Both the position numbers and the translations under genes were made by a program. A stretch of 33,242 bases of DNA from Natrinema versiforme JCM 10478 (GTDB lineage: Archaea; Halobacteriota; Halobacteria; Halobacteriales; Natrialbaceae): contig NZ_AOID01000005.1 of the NCBI RefSeq assembly GCF_000337195.1, positions 1-33,242 of the forward strand. Reading direction: 5' to 3'. The notes beneath the pieces were generated by a model. That model had not been told where the DNA came from and did no database searches. It saw nothing but the letters and a program-made list of their open reading frames with translations. Positions 14,604 to 19,728 of the stretch are shown in pieces (positions within the stretch are counted from its first letter, which is position 1; each line of letters opens with the position of its first letter).

Positions 14604-14956
14604 AGATACCGGTAAGTAACGCTCGGGGATAAATTACGCGGAGTTGTATGTGAGATGCCGAACAGCACAGGGGTGCGGTCCGGTCAAAGACACAACGAAT
14701 AAGTCGGATCAACCCCGTTGAGCGTATATGCGCCACGTCGCTCCATCGACCGACGGTCCCGTCGTGAGCGGCGTCTGCCCTCGTTTTATCAAACGTAAAC
14801 GCGCGTGAGTGTGCTCGCGGCGGGCTGGCACCCCGTCCCGGGGACGTTTCGACCGCGCACGGACTTCCACCGACCACGACAGACAGCCGCCGATCGAAAC
14901 CGATACACCCTACCGATCGGCGGCCGAGACACGACCCACGACACCACACCCAACAC
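14604..14956. other. 353-nt intergenic region between htpX and dapA
   Basis: The htpX promoter lies at the left end. On the right, TTTTATC (14784-14790) is the most TATA-like sequence for dapA, which would give a 5' leader of about 140 nt. That leader holds a short GC hairpin (14831-14843) and a strong inverted repeat at 14886-14924. I see no tRNA, ORF with family features, or mobile element. Confidence 0.5.
14886..14924 (+). promoter_or_regulatory. Hairpin in putative dapA leader
   Basis: GCCGCCGATCG (14886-14896) is perfectly complementary to CGATCGGCGGC (14914-14924), an 11-bp stem with a 17-nt loop, ending 32 nt before the dapA ATG. With the CCCCG-TCC-CGGGG hairpin at 14831-14843 it gives the dapA mRNA a structured leader. 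It could be a cis-regulatory RNA or a protein-bound DNA palindrome. No archaeal lysine riboswitch consensus is recognisable. Confidence 0.5.
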
Positions 14957-15883
14957 ATGAGTTCACCTATCGACCTTTCGGGCGTCTTCCCGGCGATGTG
15001 TACGCCCTTCGACGAGGACGAACGGATCGATTTCGAAACGCTGCAGACCGACGCCCAGCGCCTCGAGGCCGCGGGCGTCGACGGGCTCGTCCCCGTCGGC
15101 TCGACCGGCGAATCGGCGACCCTGACCCACGACGAGCACGTCCGCGTCGTCGAGGCAGTCATCGAGGCCGTCGACGACGTGCCCGTCATCGCGGGCACCG
15201 GATCGAACAACACGCGCGAGGCGCTCGAGCTCTCCGAACGCGCCGCCGAAGCGGGCGCGGACGGCCTGTTGCTCATCTCGCCGTACTACAACAAGCCCGA
15301 ACAGCGCGGGCTGATCGAACATTACCGGACGATCGCGGACGCCGTCGACCTCCCGCAAATCGTCTATAACGTCCCCTCGCGGACGGGTCGGAATATCGAA
15401 CCCGACACCGTCGTCGAACTCGCGAGCCACGAGAACATTGCGGGGTTCAAGGCCGCAAGCGGCGACCTCGGACAGATCGGTGAGATCGCCGAGCGCACGA
15501 CCGACGAGGACTTCGCCGTCCTCTCGGGCGATGACGCGCTCACCCTGCCGACCATCTCGGTCGGCGGCACCGGGACGATCAGCGTCGCCGCGAACATCGA
15601 ACCCGAGCGGACCTGCGCGATGGTCGGCGCGGCACTCGACGGCGACTACGAGCGCGCACAGGACCTTCACCACGAACTCGGGCCACTGTTCCGCGGGCTC
15701 TTCGTCGAGACCAACCCGATTCCGGTCAAGGAAGCCATGCAGATCCGCGGCTATGGCCCCGCTCGCATGCGTTCGCCGCTCTCTCGGCTAGCCGACGAGT
15801 ACCGCGACGACCTCGAGGCGGTGCTCGCCGACCTCGAGCGCGACACGACGGAAGTCGCCGACGCGGCGGAGGGCGATCGATGA
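14957..15883 (+). CDS. dapA: 4-hydroxy-tetrahydrodipicolinate synthase
   Basis: A 308-residue TIM-barrel aldolase that condenses pyruvate with aspartate semialdehyde, the first committed step of the diaminopimelate route to lysine. The Schiff-base lysine is Lys165 (IAGFKAASGD), Tyr137 lies in QIVYNVPSRTGR, and the conserved GSTGES motif is at ~48-53. It is the first gene of the dapABD run: its TGA overlaps the dapB ATG by four bases (ATGA at 15880). A structured leader lies upstream. The family also includes KDG and sialic acid aldolases, but the dap context settles the function. Length is about normal with a slightly long acidic tail. Confidence 0.95.
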   Translation: MSSPIDLSGVFPAMCTPFDEDERIDFETLQTDAQRLEAAGVDGLVPVGSTGESATLTHDEHVRVVEAVIEAVDDVPVIAGTGSNNTREALELSERAAEAGADGLLLISPYYNKPEQRGLIEHYRTIADAVDLPQIVYNVPSRTGRNIEPDTVVELASHENIAGFKAASGDLGQIGEIAERTTDEDFAVLSGDDALTLPTISVGGTGTISVAANIEPERTCAMVGAALDGDYERAQDLHHELGPLFRGLFVETNPIPVKEAMQIRGYGPARMRSPLSRLADEYRDDLEAVLADLERDTTEVADAAEGDR

Positions 15884-16647
15884 CGGTCCGGCTCGGCGTC
15901 ACCGGCGCGACCGGCCGCATGGGCCGTGAGGTTCTGAGCGCCGCGACGGGCCGCGAGGACTGTGAGGTCGTCTTCGCCGTCAACCGCGAGCCCGACGGCG
16001 AGAGCGTCGAGGGCGTCGATGTCGAGTCCGCGGGCGAGTTCGAGTCGCTGGTCGCCGACCGCGAGCCGACCGCCGTGATCGACTTTACCGGCCCCGAGTC
16101 GGCCGCCGACTACGCGCGGGCCTGTGCCGCCGCCGGCGTCGCGTTCGTCACCGGGACGACCGGGTTCGACGACGACCAGTACGAGGCCCTCGAAGACGCC
16201 AGCGAGGACATCGCCGTCCTCCATGCACCGAACTTCGCGCGCGGCGTCCAGGCACTGGTCAACGTCGTCGGGGACGCAGTTCAGGACTTACCCGGCTACG
16301 ACGTGGAACTCGTCGAGACCCACCACAACGGCAAGCGCGACGCCCCGAGCGGCACCGCGAATCGCCTGCTCGAGGAGATCGAAGCCAACGGCGAGTTCAC
16401 CGAGCGCACGCACGGCCGCGAGGGCGAGGCCCCCCGCGAGGCGGGCGAGATCGGCGTTCACGCACTTCGGGCGGGCAACATCACCGGCGAACACGAAATC
16501 GTCCTCGCGGGTAACCACGAGGAAGTTCGACTCACCCACCGCGCGGAGGACCGCGGCGTGTTCGCCGCGGGCGCGGTCGACGCGGCGGTCTGGATCGCTG
16601 GACAAAAGGCAGGCTGGTACGACTTCGCAGACGTGATCAGCGAATGA
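15880..16647 (+). CDS. dapB: 4-hydroxy-tetrahydrodipicolinate reductase
   Basis: A 255-residue NAD(P)H-dependent reductase for the second step of lysine synthesis. The nucleotide-binding GATGRMGRE is at residues 9-17, followed by VIDFTGPE. The catalytic signature ETHHNGKRDAPSGTA is at ~146-160 and includes His148/His149 and Lys152. The C-terminal tetramerisation part ends in KAGWYDFADVI. The ATG overlaps the dapA stop (ATGA), and its own stop overlaps the dapD ATG in the same way, so dapA, dapB and dapD are translationally coupled. Confidence 0.96.
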   Translation: MTVRLGVTGATGRMGREVLSAATGREDCEVVFAVNREPDGESVEGVDVESAGEFESLVADREPTAVIDFTGPESAADYARACAAAGVAFVTGTTGFDDDQYEALEDASEDIAVLHAPNFARGVQALVNVVGDAVQDLPGYDVELVETHHNGKRDAPSGTANRLLEEIEANGEFTERTHGREGEAPREAGEIGVHALRAGNITGEHEIVLAGNHEEVRLTHRAEDRGVFAAGAVDAAVWIAGQKAGWYDFADVISE

Positions 16648-17480
16648 GCGCACTCGAGAGCGAGATCGGCGAGCTGTGGGACCGCAAACAGAACGGCGAC
16701 GTCAGCTCCGAGACCGCTGGCGAAGACGAATACGCGACCCTCGAGGCCTTTCTCGACGCGCTCGAGGACGGCGAGGTCCGCGCCGCCGAGAAACAGGGCG
16801 ACGAGTGGGAGGCAAATGAGTGGGTCAAACAGGGCATCCTGCTCAACTTCGGGCTCCGCGAGATCCAGCAGTACGACCACGGCGGCACCACGTACAACGA
16901 CGTGCTTCCGCTCGCGGACTCGAGCGCGTACGGCGACCGCGGGAGCCGCAACACGCCGGACGGCACGGTCGTCCGCCGCGGCGCGAACATCGGCTCGGAC
17001 TGCATCCTGATGAGCCCCGCCTTCGTCAACATCGGCGCTCGGGTCGGCGACGGCACCCTCGTCGACTCCTGCGATACGGTGGGCTCCTGTGCACAGATCG
17101 GCGACAACGTCAAACTCGGCGCGAACACGCTCATCGGCGGCGTCTTAGAGCCCGTCGAGAACGCGCCAGTCATCGTCGAGGACAACGTCTCGCTGGGCGC
17201 TGGCTGCCGGGTCACCAGCGGCTTCGTCGTCGGCGAGAACAGCGTCGTCGGCGAGAATACGCTGCTGACGCCGCGCATTCCGGTTTACGACCTCGTCGAG
17301 GATGAAGTCCTCTACGGCGAACTGCCCGCTGACCGGCGCGCCTTTACCCGGTTCGTCGAGTCCTCGATCAGCGACCACGACCTCTTCGACGGCGGGGCCT
17401 ACAAGCCCGCCGTCGTCGCGACGGATCTGGAGACGGAGACGCTCGAGGCGACCGAACGCGAAGACGCCCTTCGCGAATAG
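16644..17480 (+). CDS. dapD: Tetrahydrodipicolinate N-succinyltransferase
   Basis: A 278-residue left-handed beta-helix acyltransferase that moves a succinyl group from CoA to tetrahydrodipicolinate, committing the pathway to the succinylase branch. The N-terminal helical domain (ALESEIGELWDRKQNG) is followed by hexapeptide repeats with VVRRGANIGSDCILMSPAFVNIGARVGDGTLVDSCDTVGSCAQIGDNVKLGANTLIGGVLEP (~residues 108-170). The SPAFVNIGA...VDSCDTVGSCAQIG signature is diagnostic of DapD. A matching desuccinylase-type enzyme (dapE) lies downstream. The acidic C-terminal tail is a halophilic feature. Confidence 0.95.
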   Translation: MSALESEIGELWDRKQNGDVSSETAGEDEYATLEAFLDALEDGEVRAAEKQGDEWEANEWVKQGILLNFGLREIQQYDHGGTTYNDVLPLADSSAYGDRGSRNTPDGTVVRRGANIGSDCILMSPAFVNIGARVGDGTLVDSCDTVGSCAQIGDNVKLGANTLIGGVLEPVENAPVIVEDNVSLGAGCRVTSGFVVGENSVVGENTLLTPRIPVYDLVEDEVLYGELPADRRAFTRFVESSISDHDLFDGGAYKPAVVATDLETETLEATEREDALRE

Positions 17481-17634: not shown

Positions 17635-17886
17635 ATGAGCAAACGGGCAGAGGCCGACGACCGGGGTCGAATCGTTATTCCCCACGAGATCCGTGAGCGA
17701 CACGGCGACCGGTACCGGGTCGTCGAACTCGACGATCGGGTCGAACTGATCCCGCTGAACGACGATCCGATCGAGGGGCTTCGTGATGCCGTCGGCGATG
17801 CCTTCGATGGCACGTCGATCGACGAGATCAAACGAGAGGCACGCGAGGGCGCTCGAGACGACGCGATGGACGACACGAGCACGTAG
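17635..17886 (+). CDS. vapB: AbrB/SpoVT-fold antitoxin (VapB-like)
   Basis: An 83-residue DNA-binding antitoxin. The N-terminal swapped-hairpin motif is clear: EADDRGRIVIPHEIRERHG (~residues 6-24) followed by YRVVELDDRVELIPL, the AbrB-type 'GRIVIP..IR' signature. The C-terminal half is acidic/helical (DGTSIDEIKREAREGARDDAMDD) and would occupy the toxin active site. The PIN-domain toxin begins 6 nt downstream, so this is a type II VapBC pair. It probably represses its own promoter; a repeat cluster lies upstream. Placement inside a lysine operon is unusual. Confidence 0.88.
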   Translation: MSKRAEADDRGRIVIPHEIRERHGDRYRVVELDDRVELIPLNDDPIEGLRDAVGDAFDGTSIDEIKREAREGARDDAMDDTST

Positions 17887-17892
17887 GTTCCG

Positions 17893-18273
17893 ATGATCTA
17901 CGCCGACACCGACTTCTTCATCGCATTAGTGAAAGACGACGACTGGCTGCAGGATCGGGCGGTCGAGATCGCACTCGAGAACGAGGGAGAGATCTACACG
18001 TCACGTGCCACGTTGCTTGAACTGCTCGTGATCTCCGATCGGTTCGAGTTCGATCGAATGGAAGCACTCACCTACGCGCTCGAGATCGCGTCGGTCCCCG
18101 AAGACGAAACCGTCCTGTTTCAGGCGGCGGACTACATGGAGCAGGCGGGACTCACTGCCTTCGATGCGTACCACGTCGCCTACGCCGACGAGGACCCGAT
18201 CGTTTCGTCGGACAAATCGATCGGCGAGGTGACGGCCGATCGGATCGCGATCGAAGAACGGGAATCGGAGTAG
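17893..18273 (+). CDS. vapC: PIN-domain ribonuclease toxin (VapC-like)
   Basis: A 126-residue PIN-domain protein. Acidic residues expected in the active site are present: Asp5 (MIYADTDFF), Glu43 (ATLLELLVI), Asp91 (TAFDAYHVAYA) and Asp107 (SSDKSI). VapC toxins cleave tRNA or rRNA when free of antitoxin; the target here is unknown. It directly follows vapB, and a 45-nt gap separates it from lysA, so lysA transcription may pass through the pair. All four residues are intact, so the toxin appears functional. Confidence 0.88.
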   Translation: MIYADTDFFIALVKDDDWLQDRAVEIALENEGEIYTSRATLLELLVISDRFEFDRMEALTYALEIASVPEDETVLFQAADYMEQAGLTAFDAYHVAYADEDPIVSSDKSIGEVTADRIAIEERESE

Positions 18274-18318
18274 CGGAGAACCCAAACCTTGAATTCTCAC
18301 GGTCACGTGGACCTGACA

Positions 18319-19728
18319 ATGACTGACGCTGCGGATTCGCTGCCCGTTCGCCGCCTCTCCGACTGGGACGCGGCCGAACTCCAGGGACTCGCTGAGGAGT
18401 ACGGTTCGCCGCTGTACGTCCTCGATCTCGAGCGCGTCCGACAGAATTACCGGCGGCTCGAGGCCGCCTTTCCCGAGGCCGACATCCTCTATGCGGTGAA
18501 GGCGAACGCGCTGGGCGACGTGCTCTCGACGCTTCGCGAGGCGGGCGCGGGCCTCGAGTGTGCCTCCGCGGGGGAAGTACAGCGGGCGCTCGAGGCGGGC
18601 GCGTCCGGGTCCGAAATTCACTACACGGCGGTCAACCCGCCCGCTCGCGATCTCGACTGGATCGTCGACGCGTGGGCCGAGCACCCGGACCTGACGGTCA
18701 CCGCCGGCTCCGAGGACACGATCGAGCGGCTGGCTGACCGCGGCTACGATGGGCGACTCTGTCTGCGCGTGAATCCGGGGATCGGTGCCGGCCACCACGA
18801 GAAGGTCAAGACCGGCGCAGCCGCGAAGTTCGGCGTCCCGGCCGAGCGCGCCGTCGACGTACTCACTGATGCCGCCGCCCGCGGTTTCGATGTCGTCGGG
18901 ATCCACGCCCACGTCGGCTCCGGCGTCTCGAGCGACCAACTCGACGCCCACCGGGAGTTCGTCGCGCGGATGGGGGATCTTGCTCGAGAGGTGAGCGAGG
19001 CGCTCCGCGCCTCGGATGGCCAAACGGGGAGCGAAGCGACCCGTGCGGCGGCCGATGCCGTCGGCGGCCTCGAGTTCGTCGACGTCGGCGGCGGCTTCGG
19101 GGTACCGTACCGCGAGGACGAGGAGCCCCTTGACCTCGAGTCGGTCGCGGACGCCACGCGCGACGCGCTGGGCGAGATCGACGCCGAACTGACGATCGAA
19201 CCCGGCCGCTACTTCGTCGCGGACGCGGGCGTGCTGCTGACCGAAGTGAACACCGTCAAGGACGCCCGCGAGACGACCGTCGCCGGCGTCGACGCGGGGA
19301 TGACGACGCTGATCCGGCCCGCGATGTACGACGCCTCTCACCCGATTCGAAACCTGACCGCTGACGCGGCGGCAACGGTCTCGAGCGGCGGCGACGACGG
19401 CCGTGAGACGGTTCCCCAGACCGTCGCCGGCCCGATCTGCGAGAGCGGCGACGTTTTCTGTACCGACCGTGAACTACCAGTAAGCAAACGTGGGGATATC
19501 CTCGCGATCGGCAACGCGGGGGCCTACGGCTACGAGATGGCGAACCAGTACAACTCTCGACCCCGACCCGCGTCCGTCGTCCTCGCGGACGGCGACGTTC
19601 GGCTCGCCCGTCGCCGCGAGACTGTCGACGACGTGACGCGGCCGGAGCGCGAGGCGCGGCGGGCCTCAAACGTAGACCGAAAGAACGACCACGAGCGAGC
19701 GAGCGACACCGACAACGATCAACGATAG
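18319..19728 (+). CDS. lysA: Diaminopimelate decarboxylase
   Basis: A 469-residue PLP enzyme of the alanine racemase-like fold that converts meso-diaminopimelate into lysine. Lys61 in LYAVKANAL binds PLP. Other motifs are VGIHAHVGSG, VDVGGGFGVPY, EPGRYFVADAGVLL and GPICESGDVF (the substrate-binding ESGD). The ATG at 18319 begins the real protein; an upstream TTG at 18289 is in frame but unlikely. An in-frame palindromic element at 18995-19043 inserts about 17 residues (SEALRASDGQTGSEATR) just before the VDVGGGFG strand. The C-terminus carries an extra charged tail (RRASNVDRKNDHERASDTDNDQR) not needed for catalysis. dapF starts 4 nt after the stop. Confidence 0.95.
   Translation: MTDAADSLPVRRLSDWDAAELQGLAEEYGSPLYVLDLERVRQNYRRLEAAFPEADILYAVKANALGDVLSTLREAGAGLECASAGEVQRALEAGASGSEIHYTAVNPPARDLDWIVDAWAEHPDLTVTAGSEDTIERLADRGYDGRLCLRVNPGIGAGHHEKVKTGAAAKFGVPAERAVDVLTDAAARGFDVVGIHAHVGSGVSSDQLDAHREFVARMGDLAREVSEALRASDGQTGSEATRAAADAVGGLEFVDVGGGFGVPYREDEEPLDLESVADATRDALGEIDAELTIEPGRYFVADAGVLLTEVNTVKDARETTVAGVDAGMTTLIRPAMYDASHPIRNLTADAAATVSSGGDDGRETVPQTVAGPICESGDVFCTDRELPVSKRGDILAIGNAGAYGYEMANQYNSRPRPASVVLADGDVRLARRRETVDDVTRPEREARRASNVDRKNDHERASDTDNDQR
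18995..19043 (+). repeat. Intragenic palindromic element in lysA
   Basis: This 49-nt element matches 25001-25049 in purN/H at 41 of 49 positions and in the same reading frame. It has a first hairpin, GAGGCGC (18997-19003) with GCGCCTC (19007-19013), and a constant second half, CGGGGAGCGAAGCGACCCG, which can also fold. It encodes SEALRASDGQTGSEATR, in a loop before the VDVGGGFG strand. Confidence 0.75.

Follow-up and report, generated by a model that had tools for sequence, protein, structure and literature searches.

How is the lysine biosynthesis operon of the haloarchaeon Natrinema versiforme JCM 10478 controlled? The window, by which we mean the whole stretch of 33,242 nucleotides that was analysed, carries this operon on its forward (+) strand: dapA, the first gene of the regulated operon (14957-15883; NCBIfam TIGR00674, 343 bits against a cut-off of 206), dapB (15880-16647; TIGR00036), dapD (16644-17480; NF008808) and lysA (18289-19728; TIGR01048). 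Between dapD and lysA, genes for an AbrB-like and a PIN-domain protein (17635-18273; the latter matching PF01850, E 7e-10) form a VapBC-like toxin-antitoxin pair inserted into the operon; relatives of the AbrB-like protein occur in only 5 and relatives of the PIN-domain protein in only 4 of 80 dapA loci. These 80 haloarchaeal loci were obtained by scanning genome contigs with DapA, and counts of upstream features refer to 81 loci; as the loci are mutually related, such counts do not represent independent events.

A preliminary description had placed a structured leader in front of dapA that would not be a known lysine riboswitch. The leader itself holds up, and Rfam gives no riboswitch match, while the length, the promoter and the functional hairpin assigned to it do not. 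Judged from the comparison of sequences, this leader probably regulates in response to lysine, and we consider it likely that it does so as a leader-peptide attenuator, i.e. a device in which the position of a ribosome mediates the response.

The upstream regions of dapA have a fixed order of elements in common, namely the motif ATAAGT, a small ORF, a hairpin referred to as H2, a spacer that varies between loci and a tail rich in C and A. In the window, ATAAGT (14699-14704, + strand), a TATA-like element whose spacing marks it as the putative promoter of the lysine operon transcript, lies 29 nt 5' of the ATG of the small ORF (14728-14808, + strand), which encodes the peptide MRHVAPSTDGPVVSGVCPRFIKRKRA in 26 codons. 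Across the conserved leaders, the start codon follows 23 nt after ATAAGT, the ORF comprises 23-33 codons, and in 73 of 76 loci the distance from the first base of the conserved heptamer NATAAGT to the start codon is exactly 30 nt. Given this constant spacing, the small-ORF transcript is predicted to be leaderless, like 72% of the protein-coding transcripts in Hfx. volcanii (PMC4983044). Transcription of the lysine operon thus probably starts near 14728, on the ATG of the small ORF or directly beside it, which would make the dapA leader about 229 nt long. The earlier estimate of about 140 nt, which relied on the T-rich 'TTTTATC' at 14784, is wrong, because that stretch is part of the conserved small ORF and the promoter element that is conserved lies at 14699-14704.

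The small ORF stops ahead of H2 in 76 of the 81 dapA loci, with its stop codon beginning 2-10 nt 5' of the H2 core GCTC. The remaining five (L013, L015, L020, L075, L084) read into the hairpin, where an in-frame TAG in the loop terminates each of them; the GTAG/GTGG variation in this loop may therefore reflect a backup stop codon. Start codons interchange between ATG and GTG, and the stop codon is TGA in 53, TAG in 15 and TAA in 8 cases. When near pairs are compared, the last four codons show 6, 8 and 24 changes at codon positions 1, 2 and 3 (binomial p 1.6e-4), and the codon periodicity of substitutions over the whole ORF is weak (96/114/138). The fixed promoter spacing, the swapped start and stop codons and the third-position excess at the end argue that the frame is selected as an ORF, and this coding signature suggests that it is probably translated. 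The encoded peptide is variable apart from a constant, Lys-rich end.

It is this end that points to lysine. In the window, it contains the putative regulatory codons AAA CGT AAA (Lys-Arg-Lys; 14791-14799, + strand), with the Lys codons five and three codons before the stop. All 76 ORFs that stop before H2 have Lys within their final eight codons, and Lys makes up 31% of the last seven residues versus 0.8% of the residues elsewhere in the small ORFs. The preference for one codon is extreme: AAA and AAG occur at a ratio of 156:20 in the small ORFs versus 10:234 in dapA of the same loci (Fisher p ~1e-78, computed without correction for relatedness). The theory of bacterial attenuators expects regulatory codons to be read by the isoacceptor whose charging falls most readily (PMC1183508). 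The bias towards the rare AAA codon thus indicates tRNA sensing, and the small ORF, which the preliminary description had overlooked, is the probable sensor of lysine control. Some distant loci (L141, L143, L147) have only one terminal Lys codon, which counts against an attenuator.

The hairpin H2 (14811-14845, + strand) follows directly and is built from the stems P1 (14811-14816/14840-14845) and P2 (14820-14824/14832-14836). In 68 distinct sequences, 98.3% of the cells are paired and 7 of 11 pairs show double changes; these amount to 67 double-change cells, compared to 21.1 +/- 3.2 in shuffles, and the signal is lost upon sliding the partner. A separate GC hairpin reported at 14831-14843 (CCCCGTCCCGGGG) proves to be a misreading, its bases belonging mainly to the 3' arms of the larger H2. 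With the covariance model R1, which was used to search for H2, the genome of N. versiforme yields one strong match (E 3.7e-11); its next-best matches (E 0.058 and 0.076) read like coding sequence and were discarded. Of 392 Halobacteriales genomes, 316 have an R1 match, in nearly every case a single one, whereas none was found in the genomes sampled from the rest of the phylum. Wherever positions were compared, the H2 match lies immediately 5' of dapA; in the dapA loci, H2 and the dapA start are 79-207 nt apart. A second match in one relative (G055) is located inside a long gene and is attributed to chance. Among ten genomes without a match that were checked, six have a diverged leader (L125, L130, L133, L135, L146, L147), three have no leader (L149-L151) and one, from the same family (G169), has no dapA. 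Both the small ORF and H2 are retained in distant families, where P1 reads UCC/GGA instead of CUC/GGG.

A further hairpin, H1, lies within the small ORF (14734-14775, + strand; arms 14734-14744 and 14765-14775). RNAalifold found no consensus structure on the small ORF; tested as a named structure, H1 covaries in 32 sequences (23 double-change cells versus 7.0 +/- 2.1 in shuffles), and its region has a mean folding z of -1.8 over 76 loci.

A small ORF with rare Lys codons at its end, a promoter-like element at fixed spacing and a covarying, dapA-specific H2 together lead us to the attenuator reading. As the transcript probably starts on or directly beside the ATG of the small ORF, translation would begin once the RNA emerges. 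With ample Lys-tRNA, the ribosome would advance to the stop codon, within a few nucleotides of H2, and thereby mask the 5' arm of the hairpin; with Lys-tRNA being scarce, above all the AAA reader, it would stall 4-6 codons earlier, and H2 could form. The expression of the dap operon, which we expect to be on under lysine shortage, would then depend on whether the hairpin forms before RNA polymerase has left the leader. In folding calculations with a modelled ribosome, for which a footprint reaching from 18 nt upstream to 14 nt downstream of the A site was assumed, the probability of P1 is 0.00 when the ribosome stands at the stop codon, and 0.57 when it stands at the first of the terminal Lys codons, versus 0.65 in the free RNA. 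As H2 is masked in the one modelled state and kept in the other, it should be able to report the position of the ribosome.

The level of control and the permissive state of H2 are less certain than the sensor. The decision would most likely be made in transcription, by premature termination that may involve FttA/aCPSF1. Two points favour this level: the dapA start, far downstream of H2, is sequestered in none of the modelled states, and this archaeal terminator has been proposed to police the coupling of transcription and translation (PMC11616081). However, FttA reportedly has a preference for U-rich RNA (PMC11616081), which the C/A-rich leader downstream of H2 fits poorly. Furthermore, when the leaders and their folds were inspected, neither a conserved competing partner for the arms of H2, nor a U-rich terminator or U-tract directly after it was found, so that a classical terminator/antiterminator switch is not demonstrated. 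It also counts against an attenuator that dapA is absent from the published list of Hfx. volcanii uORFs in long 5'-UTRs (PMC4983044, Table 2).

Leaders of similar layout precede other amino-acid genes. Upstream of ilvB, all 30 loci from same-family genomes, and 17 of 19 loci from other families, have an ORF with a characteristic ending, such as IRIVGAx or IIVGV before the stop, and N. versiforme itself is among them. In the same-family leader ORFs, ATT and ATC occur at 42:10 versus 35:782 in ilvB, and GTA accounts for 33 of 41 Val codons versus 6 of 1467 in ilvB. The ilvB leader ORF is overlapped by a hairpin (GTAGGGGC..GCCCC), often followed by another one near a GGAG-like site before ilvB, suggesting translational control there. 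Upstream of pheS, which encodes the phenylalanyl-tRNA synthetase alpha subunit, a script found a Phe-rich ORF in 15 of 17 loci, typically ending in (S)GFGFFFAR before the stop; a T-rich box lies about 30 nt before the ORF start, and N. versiforme again has such a leader, the idea of which resembles bacterial pheM. Since the ilvB and pheS ORFs were sought by motif or by Phe content, what carries weight as evidence is that they recur at a fixed position downstream of a box resembling a promoter. Inspection of the regions upstream of trpC, hisG, thrC and pheA showed no ORF of this kind, and the layout is thus no general trait of haloarchaeal upstream regions. Directly upstream of trpC, a highly conserved palindrome (GTACATATGAGTACGTCGATGTAC) overlaps the promoter region, suggesting an operator and a repressor rather than attenuation.

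These leaders bear on the closest alternative, in which the same Lys codons act as the sensor and the output lies in translation (reinitiation at dapA) or RNA stability (nuclease cleavage), with transcription unaffected. The GC hairpins beside GGAG-like sequences with which ilvB leaders often end, and the failure to find a terminator after H2, speak for such an output. Sequestration of the dapA start is unsupported, as all modelled ribosome states leave the region around it equally unpaired (0.62-0.63) and 79-207 nt separate it from H2. The final 40 nt before the dapA ATG are poor in G and T (on average over 81 loci C 42%, A 33%, G 17% and T 8%; in the window, the C/A-rich, G-poor tail spans 14925-14956, + strand), and no Shine-Dalgarno sequence was seen in this stretch in the window and 80 related loci. 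On balance, an output of this kind is possible, and we regard it as a clearly lesser prospect than ribosome-mediated attenuation.

Alternatively, H2 could be a stand-alone element, i.e. a small riboswitch or a protein-binding hairpin, to which the small ORF would be secondary. Its wobble pairs U-G and G-U (columns 13-41 and 18-36 of alignment A1) are invariant and its loop GURGC is conserved in all 68 sequences, a constraint that exceeds the needs of pairing and hints at a protein or tertiary contact. Nevertheless, H2 is tied to a Lys-codon ORF at a distance of 2-10 nt, its loop supplies a stop codon where the usual one has been lost, and the ilvB and pheS leaders share the logic of the ORF with different hairpins, which makes this explanation improbable. 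Somewhat less probable still is a nascent-chain arrest of the TnaC or SpeFL type, in which lysine would be the ligand and the basic C-terminus KRKR would act within the exit tunnel: the Lys/Arg-rich ending, with Arg codons beside the Lys codons, is indeed conserved, yet the rest of the peptide is variable, the endings differ between loci (KRKRA, KKRP, KRKPTF, KRKRTHHY), and the peptide sequence does not explain the preference for AAA over the synonymous AAG. The small ORF could, finally, encode a functional small protein that lies upstream of dapA by happenstance, as its conservation and probable translation would allow; with its slight codon periodicity, an N-terminal part that tracks the pairing of H1, and only the Lys-rich end being constant, we find this very unlikely.

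As for the 11-bp perfect hairpin, here named H3 (14886-14924, + strand), its repeat (14886-14896/14914-14924) is present as described, and a perfect stem of at least 11 bp arises in just 2 of 1000 dinucleotide shuffles of 14784-14956, a region that as a whole folds unremarkably (z -0.99). Its conservation, however, is at best genus-level: all 11 pairs occur in the window only, the inner seven are retained in 12 near relatives, and there is no general structure at its position in the other dapA loci (mean z -0.5). That this lineage-specific stem, improbable by chance as it is, would be the control element of a 140-nt leader is the least likely explanation of all, since it is confined to the genus, its covariation signal is no better than in shuffles, and the promoter it requires would fall inside the conserved small ORF.

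With ribosome-mediated attenuation as the preferred reading, the dapA leader can be compared to known systems. Like the lysine riboswitch (L box, RF00168), it precedes lysine biosynthesis genes; that riboswitch, however, senses by binding its ligand, whereas the dapA leader is proposed to sense through translation, and RF00168 gave no match at the gathering threshold or up to an E-value of 5. T-boxes (RF00230) likewise sense tRNA charging before amino-acid and aminoacyl-tRNA synthetase genes, but use no translated ORF, which is central to our proposal; they gave no match either, and the Rfam scans returned no known riboswitch or leader. In Hfx. volcanii, 16 small ORFs were found in mapped 5'-UTRs of 150-250 nt; among them are an ORF of 26 aa upstream of pheS and one of 23 aa upstream of the gene for a Trp-tRNA ligase (Babski et al., 2016, PMC4983044, Table 2). 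They were not interpreted as leader peptides there; the latter may be another such leader. According to a study of archaeal transcription from 2021, neither attenuation nor antitermination has a known example in archaea (PMC8448881). Our own literature search, which was partial, found no report of archaeal leader-peptide attenuation, and a paper may exist elsewhere.

Attenuation is a textbook mechanism in bacteria, and it is the bacterial attenuators (trp, his, thr, ilvGMEDA, ilvBN, leu, pheST/pheM) that the dapA leader most resembles. In both, codons for the end product are placed just before the stop of a short ORF, RNA hairpins follow directly, and the regulatory codons are otherwise avoided by the genome; with the branched-chain amino acids and Phe-tRNA synthetase, even the pathways are partly alike. 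We know of no established bacterial example of a Lys-codon leader-peptide attenuator before dapA. Unlike its bacterial counterparts, the dapA leader belongs to an archaeal host, its small ORF is apparently leaderless and has no Shine-Dalgarno sequence, no intrinsic terminator with a U-run and no competing antiterminator were found, and H2 is unrelated to the bacterial hairpins and strongly conserved in sequence. It combines a short ORF with a coding signature, a cluster of cognate codons and a conserved structure that depends on the modelled position of the ribosome. As a terminator/antiterminator switch is not shown, its membership in the bacterial class is unproven, and we say that it works like these attenuators.

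The parallels at ilvB and pheS raise the wider, more tentative idea, which we hold at somewhat under even chances, that haloarchaea use a general, so far undescribed form of attenuation, in which leaderless small ORFs with many rare cognate codons would sense the charging of Lys, Ile/Val and Phe tRNAs and control transcription elongation of dapA, ilvB and pheS. If true, archaea would thereby gain their first known attenuation mechanism, and the steering of the archaeal RNA polymerase by the position of a ribosome would be directly evidenced. A conserved Lys leader, with parallels for Ile/Val and Phe in the same genomes, would mean that archaea, too, possess tRNA-charging sensors of this type, built on leaderless translation.
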